A stretch of 64,000 bases of DNA, from positions 62,001 to 126,000 of the forward strand of contig NZ_KQ948023.1 of assembly GCF_001513965.1 (NCBI RefSeq). Direction: 5' to 3'. The notes under the pieces are model-generated. The model saw only the letters and a list, made by a program, of their open reading frames with translations. It searched no databases and was not told the DNA's origin. This document shows positions 4,806 to 40,552 of the stretch, piece by piece. The position numbers were made by a program, and so were the translations under genes. This stretch comes from Streptomyces cellostaticus (lineage in GTDB: Bacteria; Actinomycetota; Actinomycetes; Streptomycetales; Streptomycetaceae). The stretch's first letter is position 1; every line of letters begins with the position of its first letter.

Positions 4806-6803
4806 ATGGAAGAGCCGCGTCGCCTCGGCGGCCGGTACGAGCTGGGCCAGGTGCTCGGCCGTGGTGGCATGGCGGAGGTCTACCTCGCGCATGACACCCG
4901 GCTCGGCCGCACCGTGGCAGTGAAGACGCTGCGCGCGGACCTCGCGCGTGATCCGTCCTTCCAGGCCCGCTTCCGCCGGGAGGCCCAGTCGGCCGCCTCG
5001 CTCAACCATCCCGCGATCGTCGCTGTTTACGACACGGGCGAGGACTACATCGACGGGGTTTCGATCCCGTACATCGTCATGGAGTACGTAGACGGCTCCA
5101 CGCTCCGTGAACTGCTCCACTCCGGCCGCAAGCTCCTGCCCGAGCGCGCGATGGAGATGACCATCGGCATCCTCCAGGGCCTGGAGTACGCCCACCGCAG
5201 CGGCATCGTCCACCGTGACATCAAGCCGGCGAACGTCATGCTGACCCGCAACGGTCAGGTCAAGGTGATGGACTTCGGTATCGCCCGCGCGATGGGCGAC
5301 TCCGGCATGACCATGACCCAGACGGCCGCGGTGATCGGCACGGCCCAGTACCTGTCCCCGGAGCAGGCGAAGGGCGAGCAGGTCGACGCCCGCTCGGACC
5401 TGTATTCGACGGGCTGCCTCCTCTACGAGCTGCTGACGGTACGCCCGCCGTTCGTCGGCGACTCCCCCGTGGCGGTCGCTTACCAGCACGTGCGCGAGGA
5501 ACCGCAGGCGCCCAGCGTCTTCGACCCCGAGATCACCCCCGAAATGGACGCCATCGTCCTGAAGGCGCTGGTCAAGGACCCGAACTACCGCTACCAGTCG
5601 GCCGACGAGATGCGCGCCGACATCGAGGCCTGCCTCGACGGCCAGCCGGTCGCGGCGACGGCCGCGATGGGCACGGTGGGCTACGGCGGCTACCCCGACG
5701 ACCAGCCGACGACGGCGCTGCGTCCGGACGCCGGCGCGGGAGCGACGACCATGCTCCCGCCGATGAACCCGGACGACGGCGGCTACGGCTACGACGACCG
5801 CACCGACCGGCGCCGCCCGCAGAAGAAGAACACCACCTCCACGATCCTCCTCGTCGTCGCCGGCCTCCTGGTCCTGGTCGGCGCGATCCTGATCGGGAAG
5901 TGGGTGGTCAGCGCGAAGAACACGGACGGGACCATCTCGGCCCCGAACTTCGTCGGCAACAGCTACACCACCGCCCAGAAGATGGCCGAGAACTCGGACC
6001 TGAAACTGGCACAGCCCACGCGCAAGCCGTGCGCCGCCCAGCCCAAGGGCAACGTCTGCTCCCAGGACCCCAAGCCGGGCGCGGACGTCAAGAAGGGCGA
6101 CACGATCAACCTGGTGGTGTCGACCGGCGCGCCCAAGGTCGTGGTGCCGAGCGTCGTCGGCAAGAGCTTCGCCGACGCCGAGGCGACGCTCGGGAGCGAC
6201 AAATACCAGTTCGACGTCGTGAAAAAGGAAGAGGTGTCCCCAGAGCAGGCAGGCACCGTCCTGAAGCAGGACCCGGTGCTGGGCACGGAGGTCCAGAAGG
6301 GCTCCAAGATCACCCTCACGGTCGCCAAGGCCGAGGAGAAGGTCACGGTTCCCGGCGACCTCGTCGGCAAGTCCTGCGACGACGCGAAGGCCGAGCTGCA
6401 GAACCTGGGCCTGGCACCGAACTGCGCCGACACGCCGACCAACGACCCCAACCAGGACGGCAAGGTCATCTCGACCAACCCGGCAGCGGGCCAGCAGCTC
6501 TCCAAGAACACGCCCATCGTGATCAACGTCGGCAAGGCCCAGGGCCAGCAGCAGACGCAGGTGCCGAACATCCAGGGCCGCAAGCTCAAGGACGCCAAGG
6601 CCATGCTGCAGCAGGCCGGCCTGCAGGTCGGCAACATCACGGGCTCGCAGGACGACAACGCCATCGTCTTCTCGTCCAACCCGGGCCAGGGCAGCGCGGT
6701 CCAGACGGGCTCGCCGGTCGACCTGGTCACCATCGGCCAGGGCGGCAACGGGAACAACGGCGGCAACGACGGCGGCACCCTCTTCGGTGGCACCAACGGC
6801 TGA
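4806..6803 (+). CDS. pknB: PASTA-domain Ser/Thr protein kinase PknB
   Basis: This 665-aa receptor kinase senses cell-wall fragments and controls growth and division. The N-terminal kinase domain (about 11-275) has the glycine loop GRGGMAEVYLAHD, the ATP-anchoring Lys39 in AVKTL, the catalytic loop HRDIKPANVM near residue 136, DFG near 156 and the APE-like SPEQ. A linker leads to a transmembrane helix near 346-368 and then four extracellular PASTA repeats (about 378-650), ending in a Gly/Asn-rich tail. It follows pbpA after 169 bp, so it may also have its own promoter. The kinase and the phosphatase PstP bracket the two wall synthases. Confidence 0.96.
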   Translation: MEEPRRLGGRYELGQVLGRGGMAEVYLAHDTRLGRTVAVKTLRADLARDPSFQARFRREAQSAASLNHPAIVAVYDTGEDYIDGVSIPYIVMEYVDGSTLRELLHSGRKLLPERAMEMTIGILQGLEYAHRSGIVHRDIKPANVMLTRNGQVKVMDFGIARAMGDSGMTMTQTAAVIGTAQYLSPEQAKGEQVDARSDLYSTGCLLYELLTVRPPFVGDSPVAVAYQHVREEPQAPSVFDPEITPEMDAIVLKALVKDPNYRYQSADEMRADIEACLDGQPVAATAAMGTVGYGGYPDDQPTTALRPDAGAGATTMLPPMNPDDGGYGYDDRTDRRRPQKKNTTSTILLVVAGLLVLVGAILIGKWVVSAKNTDGTISAPNFVGNSYTTAQKMAENSDLKLAQPTRKPCAAQPKGNVCSQDPKPGADVKKGDTINLVVSTGAPKVVVPSVVGKSFADAEATLGSDKYQFDVVKKEEVSPEQAGTVLKQDPVLGTEVQKGSKITLTVAKAEEKVTVPGDLVGKSCDDAKAELQNLGLAPNCADTPTNDPNQDGKVISTNPAAGQQLSKNTPIVINVGKAQGQQQTQVPNIQGRKLKDAKAMLQQAGLQVGNITGSQDDNAIVFSSNPGQGSAVQTGSPVDLVTIGQGGNGNNGGNDGGTLFGGTNG

Positions 6804-6824
6804 CACTCGCCTCTACCAGCCCTG

Positions 6825-26231: not shown

Positions 26232-29200
26232 TTGGGTTCCGACTCAGGGGCACGCACAGCTTTCGCCGAGCGCCTCGCGCTGCTGTACAAGGAGGCCGGA
26301 AATCCTCCCCTGAAGAGCGTGTCCGAGGCGGTCGTACGACTGCAACGGGTGGACGAGCGCGGCAGGCCCGTGCGGGTGTCCGCCCAGCGCATCAGCGACT
26401 GGCGACGTGCCAAGAACGTGCCGGCCCAGTTCGCCGCCCTCGCGGCCGTCCTGCAGATCCTGATCCCCGAGGCGCGCCGTTCGCGGCCGGTTCCGGTCTC
26501 CGGCGGCCTGTACGACCTCGTGCAGTGGCAGCGTCTGTGGGAGCGTGCGCTGGCCGATCCGGCCGGCGACCGCCCGGCGGTGCCCGCGCAGGAGGACGAC
26601 CGGCAGCCGCCGGCCCAGGCCCCGCCCGTCGCCGGCGGTGTGTGCCCGTACCGGGGGCTGGCTCCGTACCGCGAGGAGGACGCCCGGTGGTTCTTCGGCC
26701 GGGAGCGGAGCACGGATGCCCTGGTCACCCAGTTGCGCGCCGCGGAGAAGACGGGCGGGCTGATCATGCTGGTCGGCGCCTCGGGCGCGGGCAAGTCGTC
26801 GCTGCTCAACGCCGGCCTGGTGCCCGCGGTGCAGGACGGTGCACTCGGGGACGGGAACAGCCGGCCGAGCGCCGTGCTCCAGCTGGTGCCGGGCGTCGAT
26901 CCGCTCGGCGAGCTGACCCGCCGTATCCCGGAACTCGCCTCGCTCGCCGCCGACGCGCGGGGCGCCGAGGAGGAGGCGGCGCAGAACCCGGCGGCGCCGG
27001 GGGCCGACGCCGCGCACTTCGCCCACGGCGTGCGGGAGGCCGTTGCGGCATGGGCGCTGCGGGAGGCTTCCCCGGACGAGCGCCCGGCCGGGCAACCGCC
27101 CCGCGAGGAGGCCGCGGACACCGGCCTCGCGGGCATCGGGGCACCGTCGGCCACCGATCCGGCCGCCGTCCCCTCCCCGACCGCCCGGCCGGTCCTCATC
27201 GTGGACCAGTTCGAGGAGACCTTCACCCTCTGCGCCGACGAGGCGGACCGGCGCACCTTCCTCCAGTTCCTGCACGCGGCCTGCACGCCGCCCGCAGACG
27301 GGGGCGGTCCCGCCCCGGTGCTGGTGGTCCTCGGCATCCGCGCCGACTTCTACGAGCAGTGCCTGCGCTATCCCGAGCTGGCCGACGCGCTGCAGCACCG
27401 GCACATGGTGCTCGGGCCGCTGACCACGGCGGAGCTGCGCGAGGCGGTGACCGGCCCCGCCAAGGCCGTGGGCCTGGAGCTGGAACCGGGGCTTGCCGAG
27501 CTGATCGTGCGGGAGGTGAGCGCAGACGGCCCGCGCGGGACGCATGACGCCGGAGTGCTGCCGCTCCTCTCCCACGCCCTGCTCGCCACCTGGCAGCGCC
27601 GGAAGGCGGGCCGGCTGACCCTGGCGGGCTACCGCGCGGCGGGCGGCATCCAGGGCGCGGTGGCGGCGACCGCCGAGCGCGCCTGGTCCAGCCTCGACCC
27701 CGCCGCCCGCGCGGCCGCCCGGCTGCTCCTGCTGCGCCTGGTCCGGCTGGGCGAGGACACCCAGACCACGCGCCGGCGGGGCACCCGGCGCCAGCTGGCG
27801 CAGGAGTCGGCGGACCCCGGCAAGACCGAGGAGTCCTTGGAAGCCCTGGTGCGCGCCCGTCTGGTGACCCTCGACGCGGAGACCGTGGAGATCACCCACG
27901 AGGCGCTGCTGCACGCCTGGCCCCGGCTGCGCCACTGGATCGACGACAACCGCAACGACCATCTGCTGCGCCAGCGGCTGGAGGAGGACGGCCGGGCCTG
28001 GGAGGCCTCGGACCGGGACAGCTCGCTCCTGTACCGCGGCTCCCGCCTCGAACAGGCCCGCGGCTGGGCGAAGTCGGCGGGGGACATCTATCTGACCCGC
28101 AGTGCGGTGCAGTTCCTGGCCGCCTCGGTCCGGCTGCGCAAGCGCACGGTCCTGATCAGCCGCGCCGCGGTGACGGCTCTGGTCGTGCTCGCCGTACTGG
28201 CCGCCGGTTCGGCCGTGATCGCATGGCAGCAGCGGGACGACGCCGTGTTCGAACAGGTGCTCGCGGAGGCGGACCGGGCCCAGCACACGGATCCGTCACT
28301 GGCCGCCCAGCTCGACCTGGTGGCCCACGATCTGCGCCCGCACGACCAGGGGGCGTACAGCCGTCTGATCTCGATCGTCAACGCGCCGCTGGCCACCCCG
28401 CTGCTCGGCCACACCGGCGCCGTCTACCTCACGTCCTTCAGCCCCGACGGCAAGACCCTGGCCACGGCCAGCTACGACCGGACCGTCCGGCTGTGGAACG
28501 TGGCCGACCGCAGCCACCCGAGACCGCTGGGCAAGCCCCTCACCGGCCACACGAGCTGGGTGAGCAGCGCGGTCTTCAGCCCGGACGGACACACCCTGGC
28601 CAGCGCCGGCGACGACGGCACGATCCGGCTGTGGGACGTGACCGACCCCGCGCACCCCTCCCGGCTCGGCTCGCCGCTGACCGGCCACAAGGGCACGATC
28701 TACCTGGTCGCCTTCAGCCCGGACGGGCGCACGCTGGCCTCCGCGAGCGAGGACCGCACCGTGCGCCTGTGGGACGTGGCCGACCCGCACAGGCCCAAGC
28801 CGCTCGGCGTGCTGGGCGGCCACACCGCCGCGGTGCGCTGCGTCGCGTTCAGCCCCGACGGGCGCACCCTCGCGGCCGGCAGCGACGACGACACCATCCG
28901 GCTGTGGAACACCGCCGACCCGCGCCACCCCGAGCCCCTGCGCACGGTGCTGACCGGCCACACGGACATCGTGCACTCGGTGGCCTTCAGCCCCGACGGG
29001 CGCACCCTCGCCAGCGGCAGCGCGGACGACACCATCCGCCTGTGGAACACCGCCGACCCGGCGCACGCGGCCTCGATCGGCTCGCCGCTGACCGGACACA
29101 CCGGCCCGGTCTGGTCCGTGGCCTTCAGCCCCGACGGCGGCCGGCTCGCAGCCGCCAGCGCGGACAGCACGGCCAGCCTGTGGAACGTCGCCGATCCCCT

Positions 29201-30374
29201 GTCCCCCTCCCAGGTCGGCGAGCCGCTGGTGGGCAGCAGCGGCGAGATGTTCGCCCTGGGGTTCAGCCCCGACGGGCGCACCCTCGCCACCGGCAGCGGT
29301 GACAGCAAGGTCCGTCTGTGGTCGGTCCCGACGTCGGACATGATCGGCCGCAGCGGAGCGTTCCGGCCGGACGGCAAGGTGCTCGCCACGGCCGCGCGCG
29401 ACGGCAGGGTCCGGCTGTGGAACGTGGCGGCGCCCGAACGGCCCGTGGCGCTGGGCAAGCCGTTCATGGGCACGGACGGCGGCCACCGTTCGATGATGTT
29501 CTCCCCCGACGGCCGTACCCTCGCCGTGCTGAACGGGACAGGGACGCTGTACCTGTGGAACGTCACCGTCCCGTCCCGTCCCGTCCCCGCCGGGCCCCCC
29601 GTCGCCCTGCGCACCCGCTTCGCGGGCTTCCACACGCTGGCGTACAGCCCGGACGGCCACACCATGGCCACCGCCTACCAGGACCGCACCATCCAGCTGT
29701 GGAACGTCACCGACCCCTCCCGTGCCGTCCCGCTCGGCAAGCCGCTCACCGGGCACCGGGGCTACGTCAACGCCCTGGTCTTCAGCCGGGACGGGCACAC
29801 CCTGGCCAGCGGCAGCGCGGACCGCACCATCCGGCTGTGGAACGTGACCGACCCCCGCCACGTCACCCTGCGCGAGCAGCCGCTCACCGGGCACTCCGGC
29901 CCCGTCAACGCCCTCGCCTACAGCCCCGACGGCCGCACCCTGGCCAGCGGCAGCGACGACGACACCGTACGGCTCTGGAACGTCACCGACCCCCGGGCGA
30001 CGACCGCGCTCGGCGCCCCCCTGACCGGCCACACCGAGGCGGTCACCTCGCTGACCTTCACCACGGACGGCCAGGCCCTGGCCAGCGGCGGGGACGACAC
30101 CACGGTCCGGCTCTGGAACGTCACCCACCCTTCGTCGGCCAAACCCATCGGCCAGTCGATGAGCCCCTACGCCAAGACGGGCAACTTCCTGTCCTTCAGC
30201 CCCAACAGCCGTGTGCTCGGGGTGTCGAGCGGCGCGGACACGGTCCGGCTGTGGCGTCTGAACGCCGACGAGGCCATCCGGCACATCTGCGCGGTCACCA
30301 ACGGCGTACTGACCCCGCAGAAGTGGCACGAGTACCTGACCCGCCTGTCGTACGACCCCCCGTGCCCCCGCTGA
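26232..30374 (+). CDS. HTH-nSTAND NTPase with two WD40 propellers
   Basis: This is a 1380-aa signalling ATPase. Residues 8-78 resemble a helix-turn-helix region (RVSAQRISDWRRAKNVPAQF). The nSTAND module begins near 137 (CPYRGLAPYREEDARWFFGR), with Walker A G182-S189 and Walker B ending at Asp325 (VLIVDQFEE). A transmembrane helix lies near 638-664. Fourteen WD40 units (about 724-1345) suggest two seven-bladed propellers. STAND proteins act as switches that oligomerise when a sensor domain binds its trigger; the trigger here is unknown. The start seems to be TTG at 26232, preceded by GGGGTGGGACC. It is monocistronic and ends at an intrinsic terminator. Confidence 0.92.
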   Translation: MGSDSGARTAFAERLALLYKEAGNPPLKSVSEAVVRLQRVDERGRPVRVSAQRISDWRRAKNVPAQFAALAAVLQILIPEARRSRPVPVSGGLYDLVQWQRLWERALADPAGDRPAVPAQEDDRQPPAQAPPVAGGVCPYRGLAPYREEDARWFFGRERSTDALVTQLRAAEKTGGLIMLVGASGAGKSSLLNAGLVPAVQDGALGDGNSRPSAVLQLVPGVDPLGELTRRIPELASLAADARGAEEEAAQNPAAPGADAAHFAHGVREAVAAWALREASPDERPAGQPPREEAADTGLAGIGAPSATDPAAVPSPTARPVLIVDQFEETFTLCADEADRRTFLQFLHAACTPPADGGGPAPVLVVLGIRADFYEQCLRYPELADALQHRHMVLGPLTTAELREAVTGPAKAVGLELEPGLAELIVREVSADGPRGTHDAGVLPLLSHALLATWQRRKAGRLTLAGYRAAGGIQGAVAATAERAWSSLDPAARAAARLLLLRLVRLGEDTQTTRRRGTRRQLAQESADPGKTEESLEALVRARLVTLDAETVEITHEALLHAWPRLRHWIDDNRNDHLLRQRLEEDGRAWEASDRDSSLLYRGSRLEQARGWAKSAGDIYLTRSAVQFLAASVRLRKRTVLISRAAVTALVVLAVLAAGSAVIAWQQRDDAVFEQVLAEADRAQHTDPSLAAQLDLVAHDLRPHDQGAYSRLISIVNAPLATPLLGHTGAVYLTSFSPDGKTLATASYDRTVRLWNVADRSHPRPLGKPLTGHTSWVSSAVFSPDGHTLASAGDDGTIRLWDVTDPAHPSRLGSPLTGHKGTIYLVAFSPDGRTLASASEDRTVRLWDVADPHRPKPLGVLGGHTAAVRCVAFSPDGRTLAAGSDDDTIRLWNTADPRHPEPLRTVLTGHTDIVHSVAFSPDGRTLASGSADDTIRLWNTADPAHAASIGSPLTGHTGPVWSVAFSPDGGRLAAASADSTASLWNVADPLSPSQVGEPLVGSSGEMFALGFSPDGRTLATGSGDSKVRLWSVPTSDMIGRSGAFRPDGKVLATAARDGRVRLWNVAAPERPVALGKPFMGTDGGHRSMMFSPDGRTLAVLNGTGTLYLWNVTVPSRPVPAGPPVALRTRFAGFHTLAYSPDGHTMATAYQDRTIQLWNVTDPSRAVPLGKPLTGHRGYVNALVFSRDGHTLASGSADRTIRLWNVTDPRHVTLREQPLTGHSGPVNALAYSPDGRTLASGSDDDTVRLWNVTDPRATTALGAPLTGHTEAVTSLTFTTDGQALASGGDDTTVRLWNVTHPSSAKPIGQSMSPYAKTGNFLSFSPNSRVLGVSSGADTVRLWRLNADEAIRHICAVTNGVLTPQKWHEYLTRLSYDPPCPR
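28404..30268 (+). repeat. Fourteen WD40-encoding repeats inside the nSTAND gene
   Basis: Units of about 130-140 bp each encode GH-x(n)-FSPDG-x-TLAS-x-DxTIRLWN. Repeats 4, 5, 11 and 12 are the most alike. Repeats 7 to 10 and 14 lack the GH dipeptide or diverge. Confidence 0.85.
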
Positions 30375-30594: not shown

Positions 30595-30638
30595 GTGGGG
30601 CTAACAGGATTTGAACCTGTGGCCTCATCCTTATCAGG
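30595..30638. repeat. attL: 44-bp direct repeat, tRNA-Ile 3' half
   Basis: This 44-bp sequence is identical to 40478-40521. It covers the anticodon-loop-to-acceptor half of tRNA-Ile and was the chromosomal 3' end before integration. It is not a functional tRNA by itself. Confidence 0.95.
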
Positions 30639-31009: not shown

Positions 31010-31200
31010 AAGTCCTCCAGGGTCGAAGTTGGGGCGCGCCTGATTTCCTTCGCCAAGGGTGGGCGCGCCCTTCCTGTTACCTGGACAAGCTACGGCACGG
31101 CACTGACAGATGTGACGCCCGCAGAGTGCAGCAACTCGACCTGGGCTTTTGTCAGTTGGGATCGCTCTGTGGAAGCCCCTGTGGAGACTGGTCCATTTTC

Positions 31201-31286
31201 TGTGGACAGGGGGGTGTCTACGCAGCGTGAGCCATCCACACCCCCCTGCACGTTGCGTGACTAGTTTCCACAAGGCCTGTGGATAA
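31201..31286. promoter_or_regulatory. Inverted repeat and DnaA-box-like sites in the AICE
   Basis: CAGGGGGGTGT (31207-31217) pairs with 31238-31248. TGTGGATAA at 31278-31286 is a perfect DnaA box; TGTGGACAG at 31201-31209 and TTTCCACAA at 31265-31273 are near matches. This could be part of an origin or host-factor site for the element. Confidence 0.5.
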
Positions 31287-31338
31287 CTCTGCGTAGTGAC
31301 TTGGAACACACCCCTTCCTGCACCCACCACCCTCCCCA

Positions 31339-31490
31339 GCTCCCATCCCGTCCGCCGTCGACCCACACACCGTGGAGCGGACGTGGTTCAGGGGCGTCAA
31401 GGTGGAGCGCGCCACTGTACGAACGACCTTGACGCCCCTGGGCCGCGTCTGCTCGGCTCTGCCTGGGTCGACGGTGGACGGGATGGGAGC
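31339..31490. repeat. 152-bp imperfect palindrome in non-coding AICE DNA
   Basis: Outer arms of 27 bp (31339-31365 with 31464-31490, one mismatch) and inner perfect 15-bp arms (31389-31403 with 31426-31440) share the same centre near 31414.5. The segment between the arms is partly palindromic too. The whole 31010-31782 stretch has no convincing gene; apparent frames on both strands here mirror each other because of the palindrome. From 31640 to 31740 it is a very GC-rich patch of GAGCG/GCAGCG motifs. Candidate roles are replication origin, transfer site (clt) or structured RNA. Confidence 0.8.
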
Positions 31491-31782
31491 CCCCGCGCAC
31501 GCCACAATGGACCCGCGGGCGGAAACGGCGCCCCCTCCTCCCGGTGCCGGCCGATCCCCCGCCGGAGGCATGGTCTTGACCGTGGTCGCGCTGTGCGGTG
31601 ATCGACTCATGGCCTCCGGCCCTATCCACAGTGGGCGCGCGTCGGCGCAGCGTGCGCGGAGCGGGCCGGAGGCAGGAGCGCAGCGCGCAGCGGAGCCGGG
31701 AAGCGCGCCCGGCGGAGCGGAGCGCAGCCGGGGCTTGATGAGGTAGAGAAACCTGTAACAGGTCCCGGGTCCCGGTCGAAAA

Positions 31783-31930: not shown

Positions 31931-32596
31931 TCAGGCAGAGTGCTGGTCCGTGGCGAGAAGTCGGCTGGTGAAACCCTCGCGGCATAGCCGCTCGTACGCC
32001 TCCAACACGTCATCCGGTACGGGCTGGCTGATCATGTACCCCTGCTCCGGGTAGATCAGGAGTCGCTGAAGTGCCCCCACCAGCATGTCAATGACCAACC
32101 GGGCGTCCTGGATGGAGTCCGCGTACTCCTCCAACGTCATCGGAGTGGACGCGCTGACGATCTCGACTTCGGGCCACAGCTTGCGCGCCGTGGCGTAGGC
32201 GCGCTTCTCCTCGTACGGCTTGCTGATGAGGAGCACGGAGGAGACCTCCACTCCGGCCGCCTCAAGCACGGCTCTGGAAAGGCGGATGTTCTCGCCGGTA
32301 TTGCGGGCGTTGGGTTCTACGAGTACGGCTGAGCTGGGAACACCGAGTTCGAGAGCTCGTTCGCGGTAGTGGACAGCTTCACCGCGAGGCATGCGTTCCC
32401 GCGTCGTAGGGCTGGTGGCTCCCGTGAACACAAGCAGGGGAGCCATGCCGCGCTTGTACAGGTCGACGGCCGTATCGGCCACACCCAGGTCATGGCTACC
32501 CAACCCGATCGCGACTGAGCACGGCCGCAAGGCATGGCCCATCTGATGGTAGTCCCACAGTCGCCGTGCGTCGGTCCATGCCTGAGTGGAGATCAT
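31931..32596 (-). CDS. YdcF/DUF218-family protein
   Basis: This 221-aa protein has the DUF218 (YdcF/ElyC/SanA) core: an early AIGLGSHD loop, FTGATSPTTRERMPRGEA, VEPNARNTGENI with the signature Asn and Glu, and LLISKPYEEKRAYA. The membrane helix common in cellular YdcF proteins is missing, so it is probably cytoplasmic. YdcF-like proteins recur in AICEs beside the GntR regulator, with no proven role. Its ATG overlaps the GntR stop by one base (TAATG), so they are coupled. Confidence 0.9.
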   Translation of the reverse strand: MISTQAWTDARRLWDYHQMGHALRPCSVAIGLGSHDLGVADTAVDLYKRGMAPLLVFTGATSPTTRERMPRGEAVHYRERALELGVPSSAVLVEPNARNTGENIRLSRAVLEAAGVEVSSVLLISKPYEEKRAYATARKLWPEVEIVSASTPMTLEEYADSIQDARLVIDMLVGALQRLLIYPEQGYMISQPVPDDVLEAYERLCREGFTSRLLATDQHSA

Positions 32597-33387
32597 TACT
32601 GCCCCTTCTCGCCCTTCGCCGAGTCCGGCACCTTGAAGTCGTATTCCCAGGCGAAGCGCGAAGCCGCGTGCACACCAATGGCGAACTCCACCACTGTGCC
32701 AGAGGCCGTGTACGTCGTCCGGTGCAGCTCGACAACAGGTTCGCCCGGCGGCAACTGCAAGAGCTTCACTTCGTCGGCCGTGGCCGCCCTGGCGAAGATC
32801 TCCTCTTTCATGTGGTCGATCTCGTATCCCGCGTCGTACAGCACGCGGAATCCGCCGCCGCGACCGGCGGGCCCCGGCGTCGGGTCCACCAGTCGTGTGC
32901 CCTCGACGTGTTCGGGCCGGTAGTAGCTGGTGAGGGTGTGGGTCGGCTGATCGCCTTCCTTAACCAGCCGCGCTCGTGCGTACACCTCCGCCCCCTCGTG
33001 CAGACCGTGCGCAGCGGCGACCGCGGGCGGGGCTTCCACGCGGCTGACGGTCTGGGTCTGCTCGTTGCGGCGATAGCTGCGACCAGAGGCCACGCGGTCC
33101 GCGATGAAGGCGACCTCGTCGCCATCGCGCCACTTGGCCTTGTCGTACCTGCCGATGCCGAGCCGCTTCAGCGGAACTCGTTGCCGTACGACGGTGCCGT
33201 GCCCGCGGGACGAGGTCACCAGGCCCTCGGCCTCAAGAGCCTTGTATGCCTGGTGGACGGTGGACTTGGAGCCCTCGCCTGCCGCAACAAGCTCCCTGAT
33301 CTGCGGAAGCTGCTGGCCAGGCGCATACTCACCCCTCTTGATCTGCTCAGCCAGCTTGTCGGCCAGCTCCCGCCACTTCGGCGTCAT
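32596..33387 (-). CDS. GntR/HutC-family transcription regulator (KorSA-like)
   Basis: This 263-aa protein has an N-terminal winged helix (about 1-75; PGQQLPQIRELVAAGEGSKSTVHQAYKALEAEG) and a C-terminal UTRA domain (about 95-255). In pSAM2 the homologue KorSA represses transfer genes. The ATG at 33387 has GAGGAG upstream; the frame is open far upstream but the winged helix begins here. Three palindromic operators lie between it and the divergent transfer operon, so it probably represses both directions. Confidence 0.93.
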   Translation of the reverse strand: MTPKWRELADKLAEQIKRGEYAPGQQLPQIRELVAAGEGSKSTVHQAYKALEAEGLVTSSRGHGTVVRQRVPLKRLGIGRYDKAKWRDGDEVAFIADRVASGRSYRRNEQTQTVSRVEAPPAVAAAHGLHEGAEVYARARLVKEGDQPTHTLTSYYRPEHVEGTRLVDPTPGPAGRGGGFRVLYDAGYEIDHMKEEIFARAATADEVKLLQLPPGEPVVELHRTTYTASGTVVEFAIGVHAASRFAWEYDFKVPDSAKGEKGQ

Positions 33388-33420
33388 CTCACGACTCCTC
33401 TCGATGAGACAAGTCAAGCA

Positions 33421-33493
33421 CAGTCCCAGGACTGTTGACAGTCCCAGGACTGCGTGCCACAGTCTCCTTAAGCCGCTCGCAGTCCTAGGACAG
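33421..33493. promoter_or_regulatory. Three palindromic operators of the AICE regulator
   Basis: CAGTCCCAGGACTG occurs at 33421-33434 and 33439-33452, exactly 18 bp apart. CAGTCCTAGGACAG at 33480-33493 is a third, slightly diverged copy. Each has AGTCC/GGACT half-sites. They sit in the divergent promoter region of the GntR gene. Confidence 0.85.
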
Positions 33494-33549
33494 CGAGTCT
33501 GGAGGGCCTTCTTTGGGCTGCTCCAAAGCATCGACTCAAGGAGTGCTTC

Positions 33550-33879
33550 ATGCCGTCCTTCAAGATCGACACGTCGACCGCCGTGGTGTTCGTCGCGACC
33601 ACGCCGGAACCGAAGATGGTCAACAAGAAGACCGGTGAGCGGGCCGTGGACCGGGAGACCAACGCGAGCCTCTCGACCGTGGGCCTGCTGGTCTCGGACG
33701 AGGGAGAGGGCAACCTCTACCAGGTGACCGTGCCGGAGACCGGCCTTCCCGAGGGGCTTCAGCCGGGTATGCCGGTCAAGGTCATCGGCCTGAAGGCGCG
33801 TGACTGGGAGAACGAGTTCAACGGCCAGAAGCGGCACGGGATCTCGTTCCGCGCGGTCGCGATCACCCCGGCGGCCTGA
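33550..33879 (+). CDS. SCO3933-family element regulatory protein
   Basis: This 109-aa beta-rich-looking protein starts with PSFKIDTSTAVVFVATTPEPK and is the conserved first gene of the transfer operon in many Streptomyces AICEs. The family name includes regulatory, but no mechanism is established to my knowledge. The ATG at 33550 has CAAGGAGTG upstream. Only two bases separate its stop from the TraSA gene. Confidence 0.88.
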   Translation: MPSFKIDTSTAVVFVATTPEPKMVNKKTGERAVDRETNASLSTVGLLVSDEGEGNLYQVTVPETGLPEGLQPGMPVKVIGLKARDWENEFNGQKRHGISFRAVAITPAA

Positions 33880-33881
33880 CC

Positions 33882-35222
33882 ATGACCGACCTGACGATGT
33901 GGCTGGAGGCTACGGGCGCCCTGGCGGGTGGCGGTGGTCTCGGCTATGCGAAGGTGCGCGCGCCGCGTGTGTACTGGTCCCTGGTCGGGATGCCGATTAC
34001 CTGGGGCCGCTTCACCCTCTCGTACCGCTCCACGATGGATGTGTGCGGGCTGACGGTGCACCCGTCGGGCCTGCGGGCGTTCTTCACCCGCAGCGTCGCT
34101 CGTCGTGAGGTTCAGCCGGTTCCGCCGAAGATCCGCCGGGTGCGCGGCACGTCGACCGGGCTGCGGGTGACCCTGCGGCTTCCCGCTGGCCTGGAGCCCG
34201 CCGACGTGATCGCCTCCTCGGAGCGGCTCCGGCACGCCTGGGGTGTCCACTCGGTGACTGTGGTCGAGACGAAGCCCGGTTTCGTCGAACTGCGGATGAC
34301 CGGCTATGACGTGCTGCGCCGGGTGAAGATGCCCCGCAAGGCCCGCCCGCACGACATGGCCGTTCCGGTCGCAGTGCGGGAAGACGGGACCGCGTTCGAG
34401 CGGGACTACCGCAAGGCACCGATGGCACTCACCCTGGGCGCCAACCACTCCGGCAAGTCCATGTATCAGCGCAACCTGATCAAGGGACTGGCGCAACTGC
34501 CGGTGGCCCTGGTCGGCGTCGACTGCAAGCGCGGGGTGGAACAGTCCGCCTTCGCGCCCCGCCTGTCGGCGCTGGTCACCAACCCCGACGATGCCGCCTC
34601 ACTGCTGGGCGTCCTGGTCGCGGAGATGGAAGACCGCTTCGACCTGCTGAGCCGAAACGGCGTCTCCGACCTGTGGGAACTCCCCTCAGAGCTGCGCCCG
34701 GTGCCGGTGGTCGTCTTGGTCGACGAGGTGGCGGAACTGTTCCTGATCTCCTCCAAGAAGGATGAGGAGCGCCGGGAACGGATCGTCACCGCGTTGATCC
34801 GGCTGGCGCAGATGGCCCGTGCCATCGGCATCTACCTGGAGATCTGCGGGCAGCGCTTCGGTTCCGACCTGGGCAAGGGCGCCACCATGCTCCGCGCTCA
34901 GCTCACCGGCCGCGTGGTGCACCGCGTCAACGACAAGCAGACCGCCGAGATGGGTCTCGCCGACGTGGCCCCGGACGCTGTCCCGGCGGCGAGCCTGATC
35001 CCGATGAACCGGCCCGGAACCGCTGTCGCGGCGGACTCCTCCGGCGGCTGGTCGAAGATCCGTACCCCGAACACCTCGCGCGATGAAGTCGTGGCGGTCT
35101 GCCGGGAGTTCGCCCACCTGGTCCCGGAGCTGCCGTTCCTCGACCCGTTCCGCCCCTACGTTCCCGCCCCCGTGCCGGCGGCCGGTCCGTCGCTGGTCAA
35201 GCCCCGGCCCGTCACCGAATAA
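33882..35222 (+). CDS. traSA: FtsK/SpoIIIE-family DNA translocase TraSA
   Basis: This 446-aa protein is the septal DNA pump that moves double-stranded element DNA between mycelia. There is a Walker A GANHSGKS (186-193) and Walker B VVLVDEVAEL near 276-285. An N-terminal membrane helix is not obvious apart from a short hydrophobic stretch near the start. The gene is compact relative to plasmid TraB proteins (about 750 aa) and like AICE TraSA. It follows the SCO3933-type gene within two bases, so they are one operon. Confidence 0.93.
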   Translation: MTDLTMWLEATGALAGGGGLGYAKVRAPRVYWSLVGMPITWGRFTLSYRSTMDVCGLTVHPSGLRAFFTRSVARREVQPVPPKIRRVRGTSTGLRVTLRLPAGLEPADVIASSERLRHAWGVHSVTVVETKPGFVELRMTGYDVLRRVKMPRKARPHDMAVPVAVREDGTAFERDYRKAPMALTLGANHSGKSMYQRNLIKGLAQLPVALVGVDCKRGVEQSAFAPRLSALVTNPDDAASLLGVLVAEMEDRFDLLSRNGVSDLWELPSELRPVPVVVLVDEVAELFLISSKKDEERRERIVTALIRLAQMARAIGIYLEICGQRFGSDLGKGATMLRAQLTGRVVHRVNDKQTAEMGLADVAPDAVPAASLIPMNRPGTAVAADSSGGWSKIRTPNTSRDEVVAVCREFAHLVPELPFLDPFRPYVPAPVPAAGPSLVKPRPVTE

Positions 35223-37472: not shown

Positions 37473-37666
37473 CCGCCATGGCTGACCTCACCCCGACCCC
37501 GGACCGCCCTGGCCTGCACGTCAGCAAGCCGTCCCCGTCCGCCCCCGCCACCGCGTCGGCCGTCTGCCACTGCGGCGCCCGCGCCACCGCCACGGGTGAC
37601 GCCCAGGTCAAGGCGCTGGTCGACGGCTGGGACGCCAACCACGGCCGCGCACACGGAAGGAAGTAA
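37469..37666 (+). CDS. Hypothetical small AICE protein
   Basis: This 65-aa protein has a single CHCGAR knuckle in its middle and a helical C-terminus (DAQVKALVDGWDANHGRAHG). It starts at GTG 37469, overlapping the previous stop, or at ATG 37478. It stops 4 bp before the replication initiator gene, so it is probably co-expressed. Confidence 0.72.
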   Translation: MTAMADLTPTPDRPGLHVSKPSPSAPATASAVCHCGARATATGDAQVKALVDGWDANHGRAHGRK

Positions 37667-37670
37667 CCGC

Positions 37671-39065
37671 GTGACCACCGCCGCCACCATGGCGGGCCTG
37701 GACCCGGCCACCCTCGCCGACGTGCTGAGGCTGGCCGGGTCTTCGGACCTCGACCGCATCCAAGACCAGATCCGCCGTACCGGCGGCTGCTCCGACCCGA
37801 TCCACCTGCAAGGCTCCACCGTCACCCGCGACGCTGCCACCGGCTACGTGCTGCACTCGTACTCGACCGACACCGAACCCGGCGGCCGACTCCGTATCGC
37901 TTGCGGCAACCGCCGTGCCTCGCGCTGCCCGTCCTGCGCCTGGACCTACGCGGGCGATACCTACCACCTGATGCGCGCCGGACTTGTCGGCGACCCGGCC
38001 AAGGGCACCCCGCACACCATCCGCGATCACCCCCGGGTCTTCGCCACGCTCACCGCGCCCTCGTTCGGCCCCGTCCACAACCGCCCCGGTAACCGGCCGT
38101 GCCGTTGCGGCGTCCGTCACGCTGAGGACGCGCCCGAACTCGGCACCCCGCTTGACCCCGCCTCGTACGACTATGCGGGCGCGGTGCTGTGGAACAACCA
38201 CGCCTCCGACCTGTGGCGCTACTTCACGATCTACCTGCGCCGCGAGATCGCCCGCCGGGCCGGACTCACGCAGAAGGAAGCCCGTGAACAGTCCCGCGTC
38301 TCCTTCGGCAAGGTCGCCGAGTATCAGAAGCGCGGGGCCGTGCACTTCCATGCCGTGATCCGCTTCGACGGTCCCGACGGGCCCGACAGCCTGCCGCCGG
38401 GCTGGGCCACCCTCGACGTTCTCACCGATTCGATCCGCGCTGCCGCTGCCCGCGTCGCTGTCGACGTACCGCCCGCGGGAGACGAGCCCGCTCGCACCCT
38501 GGGCTGGGGCACACAGCTCGATGTCCAGCCGATCGGCGCTTTCGGCCACGGTGAGGAGATCACTGAACAGGCCGTGGCTTCCTACGTCGCCAAGTACGCG
38601 ACCAAGGCCGCTGAGACGACCGGCACTGTTGACCGCCGCATCGGCAACAAAGAGGCCCTGGTTCTGCTCGGCGTGCCCGACCACCCCGCCCGGCTCATCG
38701 CCGCGTGCCTCGACCTGCACGCGCTCTACCCGGACCGCAAGCTTCGGGACTGGGCTCACATGCTCGGCTTCCGCGGCCACTTCTCCACCAAGTCCCGCCG
38801 CTACTCCACCACCCTCGGCGCTCTGCGCCAGGTCCGAGCCGACTACCGCGCCGCCCAGCAACGCACCGCCCTGGGCCTGCCCGAACCCGACGACGCCCCG
38901 GAGGCAACCACGCTCACCCTCGCCCACTGGACCTACGCCGGACACGGCCACACTCCCGGCGAATCCTGGCTCGCCGCCAACATCCGCCGCGAGATCCAGC
39001 ACAACCGCGAAACCGCCCGCGAGGAACTACCCGCCCTGCTCGACCTGGAAGGAGCCGCCGCATGA
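37671..39065 (+). CDS. repSA: Rolling-circle replication initiator RepSA
   Basis: This 464-aa protein carries the HUH nickase signature AVHFHAVIRF (His225, His227) and downstream YVAKYATK with the catalytic Tyr305 or Tyr309 region, as in RepSA of pSAM2 and related Streptomyces initiators. Two Cys-rich patches (CGNRRASRCPSC, CRCGVRH) may bind zinc. GTG 37671 is preceded by GGAAGGAAG. It should nick the excised circle at its double-strand origin, whose location is not evident. The stop overlaps the xis ATG. Confidence 0.93.
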   Translation: MTTAATMAGLDPATLADVLRLAGSSDLDRIQDQIRRTGGCSDPIHLQGSTVTRDAATGYVLHSYSTDTEPGGRLRIACGNRRASRCPSCAWTYAGDTYHLMRAGLVGDPAKGTPHTIRDHPRVFATLTAPSFGPVHNRPGNRPCRCGVRHAEDAPELGTPLDPASYDYAGAVLWNNHASDLWRYFTIYLRREIARRAGLTQKEAREQSRVSFGKVAEYQKRGAVHFHAVIRFDGPDGPDSLPPGWATLDVLTDSIRAAAARVAVDVPPAGDEPARTLGWGTQLDVQPIGAFGHGEEITEQAVASYVAKYATKAAETTGTVDRRIGNKEALVLLGVPDHPARLIAACLDLHALYPDRKLRDWAHMLGFRGHFSTKSRRYSTTLGALRQVRADYRAAQQRTALGLPEPDDAPEATTLTLAHWTYAGHGHTPGESWLAANIRREIQHNRETAREELPALLDLEGAAA

Positions 39066-39250
39066 CCACCGCCGCCCCCGAGCTGCTGACCGTGCCGGAG
39101 GTCATGGCGAGCCTCAAGGTCGGCCGGACCAAGGTCTACGACCTGATCCGCACTCACCGTCTGGTCTCGATCAAAGTCGACGGCTGCCGTCGCATCCCGG
39201 CTGACTCGGTCGGGGACTTCATCCGCGGGCAGATCGAGAGGGGGGCCTGA
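39062..39250 (+). CDS. xis: Excisionase (Xis), MerR-like helix-turn-helix
   Basis: This 62-aa protein is a single winged HTH (LLTVPEVMASLKVGRTKVYDLIRTHRL) of the excisionase/AlpA type. It directs integrase toward excision by bending the att arms. Its start overlaps repSA (ATGA) and its stop overlaps int (TGATG), so repSA, xis and int are translated together. Confidence 0.93.
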   Translation: MTTAAPELLTVPEVMASLKVGRTKVYDLIRTHRLVSIKVDGCRRIPADSVGDFIRGQIERGA

Positions 39251-40407
39251 TGACCAAGAGGCGCCCTAACGGCGGCGGCACGATCTCAAAGCGAGCGGAC
39301 GGCCGATACATGGGCCGCGCGTACGTCACCGACACGGACGGCAACCGCGTCCGCAAGACCGTGTACGGAGCCACCTGGGACGAAGCCAATGAGAAGCTCG
39401 GCAAGCTCCAGGACCAGGAACGCAACGGCGTCCCGGTGCCCGCGCGCTCCTGGACCCTTGGCGAGTGGCTGGCGTACTGGCTGGAGCACATCGTCGAGCC
39501 GGAGCGCGAGCACAACACGTACGTCAAGTACGAGTCCAAGGTGAGGCTGTACCTGCTGCCGCACCTCGGTAAGAAGCCGCTGGTCAAGCTCACCCCCGCC
39601 CTGATCCGTACGTTCATGGCGGCCCTGAAGCGCGACAAGGTCGGCTCGTCCACCCGCTTTGAGGTGCTCCGCGTCCTCCGAAACGCGCTCAACCGGGCCA
39701 TCCGAGAGGAGATCCTGACGCGCAACGTCGCGCTCCTGGTCGACATGCCCAAGGTCAGCAAGGACAAGGGCAAGGCGTGGAACGCCCGTGAGGCGATCAC
39801 GTTCCTTCGCGCGGCCCGCGCTCACCGCCTCTACGCGGCCTGCGTCCTCGTCCTGGTGCTCGGTCTGCGGCGCAGTGAGCTTCTGGGCCTGCGCTGGCAA
39901 GACATCGACTTCGAGGCTCGACAGTTCACCCCGGTCAAGCAGGTGCAGCGGGTCAAGGGCGTCGGCCTGGTCCTCAAGGACCTCAAGACCGAGTCGTCAC
40001 AGGCGGTGCTCCCCCTGCCGGAGTTCTGTGCTCGCGTCCTGGAAGAGCGCCGGGAGCTGCAAGAGCTGGAACGGAAGATCGCGGGTGAGCACTGGTCGCA
40101 GGATCCGGACCATGACCTGATCTTCTCCTCGGAGCATGGCGGCATGATCGACCCGGTGGGTTTCTCCCGCACCTTCGATCGGCTCGTCAAGCGGGCTGGC
40201 GTCCGTCGCATCACGGTCCGGCTCGCCCGGCACACCTGCGGGACCCTGCTCGCCTTCCTGAAGGTGCACCCCAAGGTGGCTCAGGCGATCCTCCGGCACA
40301 GTCAGATCAGCATGACCATGGACGTGTACACGCACGTCGTCGGCGACAGTGAGCGTGAAGCGGTCGGCATGCTCGCGGAGCTGCTGGAAGATCCGCTCAT
40401 CGGCTGA
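39250..40407 (+). CDS. int: Tyrosine-type site-specific integrase
   Basis: This 385-aa recombinase integrates the element at tRNA-Ile. An N-terminal arm-binding region (about 1-60) precedes a SAM-like core-binding domain (about 65-150) and the catalytic domain, with Arg207 (GLRRSELLGLRW), Arg327 (RLARHTCGTLLAF), His350 and Tyr360 (MTMDVYTHV). The box II motif usually written HxxR reads RLAR, with Arg324 in place of His. The gene ends 69 bp from the tRNA, as expected for an integrase next to its att site. Confidence 0.95.
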   Translation: MTKRRPNGGGTISKRADGRYMGRAYVTDTDGNRVRKTVYGATWDEANEKLGKLQDQERNGVPVPARSWTLGEWLAYWLEHIVEPEREHNTYVKYESKVRLYLLPHLGKKPLVKLTPALIRTFMAALKRDKVGSSTRFEVLRVLRNALNRAIREEILTRNVALLVDMPKVSKDKGKAWNAREAITFLRAARAHRLYAACVLVLVLGLRRSELLGLRWQDIDFEARQFTPVKQVQRVKGVGLVLKDLKTESSQAVLPLPEFCARVLEERRELQELERKIAGEHWSQDPDHDLIFSSEHGGMIDPVGFSRTFDRLVKRAGVRRITVRLARHTCGTLLAFLKVHPKVAQAILRHSQISMTMDVYTHVVGDSEREAVGMLAELLEDPLIG

Positions 40408-40475: not shown

Positions 40476-40552
40476 TGGTGGGGCTAACAGGATTTGAACC
40501 TGTGGCCTCATCCTTATCAGGGATGCGCTCTAACCAACTGAGCTATAGCCCC
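40476..40552 (-). tRNA. tRNA-Ile (anticodon GAT)
   Basis: On the minus strand the gene starts GGGGCTATAGCTCAG, has anticodon GAT in CTGATAAG, T-arm GGTTCAAATCC and acceptor TAGCCCCA, with CCA encoded. The AICE begins inside its anticodon loop region and rebuilds the 3' half exactly. Confidence 0.97.
40478..40521. repeat. attR: 44-bp direct repeat within tRNA-Ile
   Basis: This 44-bp copy is identical to 30595-30638. It forms the 3' half of the intact tRNA-Ile gene, so integration keeps the tRNA functional. Confidence 0.95.

Follow-up and report, generated by a model that had tools for sequence, protein, structure and literature searches.

The single-strand origin (sso) of rolling-circle elements is an orientation-specific piece of DNA that promotes synthesis of the second strand (PMC4595007). 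One such second-strand synthesis site, sti, spans 0.2 kb downstream of rep (PMC11985553, PMC9761944) and is placed downstream of both rep and spdA in PMC4170104, which also describes accumulation of the single-stranded form of a plasmid without its sso and cites Suzuki 2004 for priming in pSN22 that is independent of RNA polymerase. ICEBs1 of Bacillus subtilis carries sso1, which is of the pTA1060/pBAA1-like type; this element is thought to move single-stranded DNA with its relaxase, whereas AICEs move duplex DNA via TraSA (PMC3218068, PMC4595007). The visible part of the table of other ICEs in PMC4595007 holds no Streptomyces entry, and the AICE survey PMC3218068 does not use the word "sso" in its main text. 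AICEs nevertheless replicate via single-stranded intermediates, and in the literature searched, which left most subscription papers outside, we met no description of the site at which their second strand starts; we therefore make no claim of priority. The origin of pSAM2 was reportedly studied in the 1990s.

Here we analyzed a window of 64,000 nucleotides of Streptomyces cellostaticus DNA (assembly GCF_001513965.1, contig NZ_KQ948023.1, positions 62,001-126,000 of the forward strand), and all coordinates below refer to this window unless another replicon is named. It harbors a pSAM2-type AICE of ~9.9 kb, bounded by 44-bp att repeats, which hosts a long palindrome, hereafter hairpin A. The features of the element are as follows.

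30595-30638, att repeat of 44 bp at the end of the element far from the tRNA, identical to 40478-40521
31339-31490, plus strand (RepSA-sense), hairpin A, the palindrome under study, with ~65 pairs (repeat search, DNA and RNA folds, covariation)
31931-32596, minus strand, gene for a DUF218 protein (Pfam PF02698)
32596-33837, minus strand, gene for a GntR/UTRA regulator (Pfam PF00392 and PF07702)
33882-35222, plus strand, gene for TraSA, an FtsK/SpoIIIE-type transfer protein (Pfam PF01580)
37596-39065, plus strand, gene for RepSA, the rolling-circle initiator (Pfam PF20199, E 1.5e-152)
39250-40407, plus strand, gene for a tyrosine integrase (Pfam PF00589)
40478-40521, att repeat within tRNA-Ile (40476-40552, minus strand)

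Hairpin A lies ~700 bp inward from the tRNA-distal end of the AICE, so that in the excised circle it would come after rep, int and attP, in the same orientation as these; there it would precede the GntR gene, on the opposite strand, and tra. None of the large ORFs of the element that were scanned against Pfam overlaps the palindrome, and some short, unscanned ORFs do overlap it. Just outside the AICE, adjoining the att end, a gene at 26232-30374 encodes a protein of 1380 aa that combines an nSTAND1 NTPase with ten WD40 repeats.

A repeat search recovered two arms of 65 nt each (31339-31403 and 31426-31490), 83% complementary and separated by a 22-nt centre, in agreement with an earlier note on this DNA that had described a palindrome centred near 31414.5; the inner 15-nt arms, read directly from the sequence, are 31389-31403 and 31426-31440. 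Watson-Crick complementarity holds at 54 of the 65 arm positions, against 38 in the next best pair of 65-nt arms elsewhere in the 64-kb window (loops of 0-40 allowed) and at most 37 in 20 mononucleotide shuffles of a 6-kb stretch. Its folding energy is -73 kcal/mol for single-stranded DNA (z -10.8) and -135.7 for RNA (z -12.7), and in neither case was any of 200 dinucleotide shuffles as good. Its middle had been called only partly paired, and mismatches are indeed present there; pairing on the plus strand is nevertheless nearly continuous because most of these mismatches are G.T wobbles, and the RNA fold of that strand comprises 65 pairs, 58 of them Watson-Crick.

To characterize the evolution of the stem, we aligned 86 distinct hairpin copies, two identical rows having been removed beforehand (alignment A1), and 36 copies drawn from several families (alignment A3). 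In A1, 97.9% of the 5420 cells are paired, both sides have changed in 20 of the 65 pairs, and the covariation score reaches 0.116, compared with 0.014-0.030 when partners are slid. Changes on both sides affect 43 of the 64 pairs in A3, where the score is 0.443 against 0.048-0.075 with slid partners and none of 500 shuffles scored as high. The stem is rewritten from family to family, and the apical part around GGTGGAGCGC.CCAC.G.ACGAACGACC hardly varies. The earlier note had argued from the retention of the palindrome that it is under selection, which these compensatory stem changes confirm; drift of the arms without compensation, which it had named as the outcome that would speak against its reading, is not what the alignment of relatives revealed.

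As a G.T mismatch is an A.C mismatch viewed from the opposite strand, a palindrome that acts as duplex is expected to bear both equally, and counts of the two in stems offer a simple way to separate a single-strand signal from a duplex palindrome. Across 84 copies (rows L104 and L120, in which the left arm is unrelated or misaligned, excluded), the 57 pairs that are Watson-Crick in the majority hold 83 G.T versus 6 A.C on the RepSA-sense strand, with any G.T in 25 of these pairs and any A.C in 4. Thirty-seven representatives with less than 95% identity hold 53 G.T versus 4 A.C, whereas slid partners, which control for composition, gave G.T/A.C ratios between 0.75 and 2.25. In all 84 copies, the RepSA-sense strand is the better fold. 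A first strand count of 678 G.T versus 11 A.C was set aside as biased, its structure having come from a fold that allows G.U.

Sites picked by an exact loop match only, with stems unselected, numbered 72 (some of these loci being Streptomyces or recurring in other sets) and hold 154 G.T versus 27 A.C; the sense strand folds better in 66 of them, and at least 18 of the 24 positions beside the loop are Watson-Crick in 63. The bias is weaker at 21 loci outside Streptomyces (41 G.T versus 19 A.C), where the sense strand is the better one at 18. The large excess of G.T over A.C in the stems therefore indicates that a single strand is selected, and the working form is one single strand of RepSA polarity, either DNA or RNA.

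Two results extend the earlier note: the palindrome is strand-specific, and it is half of a conserved block of ~440 bp. Sequence identity drops sharply outside ~31322-31763, and hairpin A constitutes the left half of this interval, whose parts are listed below.

31322-31763, plus strand, conserved non-coding block of ~440 bp, comprising hairpin A and the right half (88-row alignment; blastn limits at 84 module-bearing loci)
31401-31428, plus strand, nearly fixed apical part of hairpin A (alignments A1 and A3; exact variant pattern in 71 loci)
31640-31763, plus strand, module B, GC-rich, common to pIJ101, pSN22, pJV1 and other plasmids (nhmmer)
31708-31732, plus strand, possible GC-rich stem-loop CCCGGC/GCCGGG directly 5' of the core (read by eye)
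31734-31759, plus strand, core motif CTTGATGAGGTAGAGAAACCTGTAAC, the end of module B (alignment, nhmmer, folds)

In the minimum-energy fold of the whole block, the bases of the possible stem-loop at 31708-31732 are paired otherwise; stems resembling it also precede the core in other RepSA loci. We rejected TATCCACA at 31623-31630 as a DnaA box, the motif not being strictly conserved in the alignment. Immediately upstream of the block, in variable DNA, the other strand carries TGTGGATAA at 31278-31286, which we take to be a perfect DnaA-box sequence.

Comparison with pIJ101-type plasmids revealed a module B match in pIJ101 itself (7373-7262, minus strand; nhmmer, E 1.2e-6) and weak matches in pJV1 (6719-6806, E 0.008) and pSN22 (314-396, E 0.013), with the core CTTGATGAGGTAGAGAAACCTGTAAC plain in all three. 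In each of these plasmids, module B shares the strand of rep and separates that gene from korA, which is on the other strand; tra lies beyond. By map order, this is where the sso of pIJ101-type plasmids is reported to be. Hairpin A gave no match in pIJ101 (L041) at E up to 1, and the search of pIJ101, pSN22, pJV1 and pSVH1 returned only a chance-level match in pSVH1 (18.3 bits, E 0.73).

The initiators of pSN22 and pJV1 are Rep_1-like but below the curated cut-off, in contrast to the RepSA of the S. cellostaticus AICE. Rep_1 was found above the cut-off in pSVH1 and L130 and below it also in L039, and RepSA was found in pMR2 as well as in the AICE of the window. Hairpin A occurs with RepSA, including that of pMR2, and with the Rep_1 of L039, a 9.9-kb plasmid of S. 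longwoodensis in which the hairpin shares the strand of rep and is located between that gene and korA; module B likewise occurs with both RepSA and Rep_1. The search also met 362 bases identical to pIJ101 (NZ_CP061946.1, 1-362) on a 5.2-kb plasmid labelled "Pseudomonas sp. SK2", which is probably a cloning vector.

Selection on a single strand suits RNA equally well, and the hairpin could act as a structured transcript, for example as a regulatory RNA or, as a terminator or stabiliser, at the 3' end of a rep-int message in the excised circle, where it would come after int in the same orientation. Conservation begins, however, ~17 nt ahead of the stem, and nothing conserved lies further upstream that could accommodate a promoter; searches of 31322-31763 with Rfam covariance models at E up to 1 matched no family (across the whole element, only the tRNA and two sub-threshold matches elsewhere). 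Module B, moreover, occupies the position of a known DNA origin. A transcript is the chief rival of the sso reading, although we regard it as improbable.

The core of module B raises the alternative that RepSA nicks at its CTTGAT, the hairpin being part of the double-strand origin (dso). CTTGAT resembles the nick sites of pC194/phiX174-type initiators, and a motif search found CTTGGGAT, CTTGGTA, CTTGATA and CCTAGGTAA all absent from the AICE of the window; neither motifs nor synonymous conservation located the RepSA nick site. The latter search, covering 55 genes, singled out two parts of repSA (38190-38225 and 38748-38820) whose synonymous sites are unusually conserved, and returned no nick motif; an origin within the gene is one possibility for these parts.

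In pJV1, by contrast, the reported nick site (PMC13346255) maps to 3391, inside the annotated rep start, while the core lies ~1.6 kb after rep, and module B is therefore not the dso of that plasmid. The core is found with both Rep_1 and RepSA initiators, and pMR2 and L039 carry hairpin A without the core CTTGATGAGGTAGAGAAACCTGTAAC. Near rep, pIJ101 and pSN22 carry a separate nick-like CTTGGGAAAG, which we take to be their dso. We consider a dso at the block unlikely.

We surveyed the genes around the block, taking 80 loci from the best-matching places of the Streptomyces genome search. The block is present in 84 of 86 loci; RepSA was found in 67, always downstream and on the same strand (67/67), and TraSA in 53 of the 84 block loci, likewise downstream on the same strand. 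Profile searches of 83 loci detected Rep together with FtsK in 52, Rep only in 15, neither in 15 and FtsK only in 1, which places Rep downstream of the block in 67 and leaves it absent nearby in 16. Rep exceeds 800 bits in 10 of the 15 Rep-only loci.

The loci that combine the block with a RepSA scoring above 800 bits and have no FtsK-type gene in between (L048, L057, L059, L067, L107, L109, L111, L113, L114 and L118) look like transfer-less AICE relatives; L113, for example, contains HAD, GntR, RepSA and integrase genes. A further set (L044, L063, L069, L077, L081, L082, L091, L092 and L093, and likewise L096, L099, L102 and L104) has no RepSA or FtsK within ~10 kb of the block, and these copies are possibly AICE remnants.

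The neighbourhood also bears on whether the block is clt, the locus recognised by TraSA for conjugative transfer. It is non-coding and palindromic, and several known clt loci have inverted repeats (PMC3583192), but known clt sequences differ between plasmids according to the same source, and the block is 84-88% identical where TraSA is only 42-43% identical (L088, L095, L098 and L122). A site read as duplex further predicts no excess of G.T over A.C, against the 83 versus 6 observed. Retention of the block in 15 of 83 loci that have Rep but no FtsK gene, though transfer in trans is possible, also argues against clt and counts in favour of the sso. We consider a clt function very unlikely.

Viewed from the initiator, RepSA was detected in 134 of 150 genomes. 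Hairpin A lies within 13 kb upstream of at least 38 of the 150 RepSA matches listed, on the same strand in 38 of 38; the count is a lower bound, contig ends, limits on listed matches and the E limit hiding some hairpins. Most RepSA elements, about three quarters, therefore do without hairpin A. Outside Streptomyces, RepSA was found in 11 of 21 loci and shares the strand of the hairpin in 10, L208 having it on the opposite strand. At the loop-scan loci, the hairpin strand is shared by 3 of 4 Rep matches and 7 of 7 FtsK matches, the RepSA of L244 being opposite.

A sample of 40 RepSA loci contained module B in 27, hairpin A in 2 and neither in 13, although this sample is unfair for hairpin A, already-fetched hairpin loci having been omitted and a known hairpin carrier (G110) included; the 38 of 150 above supersedes its figure for hairpin A and leaves the likelihood of an sso as it was. 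Module B, the commoner of the two parts, was always on the RepSA strand and lay beyond tra wherever tra was found. Upstream of module B in 25 loci without hairpin A, the sequence folds at z -3 or better in 15 (30 mononucleotide shuffles) and does not in 10. Since module B often occurs without hairpin A and with another folding sequence in its place, A seems interchangeable and looks like one of several possible 5' parts beside module B.

The earlier note had offered four candidate functions, of which the single-strand rolling-circle origin is best supported; dso and clt have become less likely. On the comparative evidence from sequence, the palindrome is probably the main structural half of the sso (minus origin) of the pSAM2-type AICE, and it would then mark where the second strand starts. 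This reading draws on the compensatory stems, the selection of one strand, the strand match with RepSA, the association with several Rep families and the sso-like map position. Origins of the phage G4 type are one-strand hairpins that are primed by primase independently of RNA polymerase, and hairpin A is like them by analogy.

Under the sso reading, RepSA would begin rolling-circle synthesis on the excised circle, and the displaced strand would fold at the block into the long hairpin with its fixed apical loop, followed by structure rich in GC and by the core CTTGATGAGGTAGAGAAACCTGTAAC. Recognition of the folded strand by a host priming enzyme would then start the complementary strand, restoring the single-stranded intermediate to the duplex that TraSA moves and the integrase uses. 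We infer that the RepSA-sense strand is the one displaced in the S. cellostaticus AICE; the working form would be DNA rather than RNA, and host priming would be the act performed at the block.

Several observations count against the sso: the many RepSA elements without hairpin A, the 13 of 40 sampled loci without both A and B, the 16 of 83 block loci without Rep nearby, the strand exceptions L208 and L244, the weaker bias outside Streptomyces, and the absence of A from pIJ101, pSN22 and pJV1. The chances seem about even that hairpin A represents an undescribed sso class, present in several actinobacterial orders and interchangeable with the origin of pIJ101 type. In this class the stem would be nearly free to change and the apical loop nearly fixed, and a host priming enzyme would read the hairpin on the strand displaced from AICEs and small plasmids. 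Being compact and portable, with a fixed loop, such a hairpin makes the second-strand step and its host enzyme directly testable.

The sequence is widespread. Part of a 622-base query (31139-31760) was matched in 329 of 392 Streptomyces genomes, and the hairpin model alone, at E 1e-12, in 78 of 150; the S. cellostaticus genome itself holds five hairpin copies. Across the class, the model matched 39 of 394 genomes, 18 of them outside Streptomyces, and 11 of 137 genera. In named genomes, the exact loop variant was found at 71 loci, with genera that include Asanoa, Actinoplanes, Nonomuraea, Actinomadura, Pseudonocardia, Geodermatophilus, Marmoricola and Pedococcus. One Nonomuraea locus (L222, NZ_LT559118.1) lies in a "plasmid" record of 11.85 Mb, evidently a chromosome; it has a copy of hairpin A, which RepSA follows at a distance of 7.8 kb in the same orientation.
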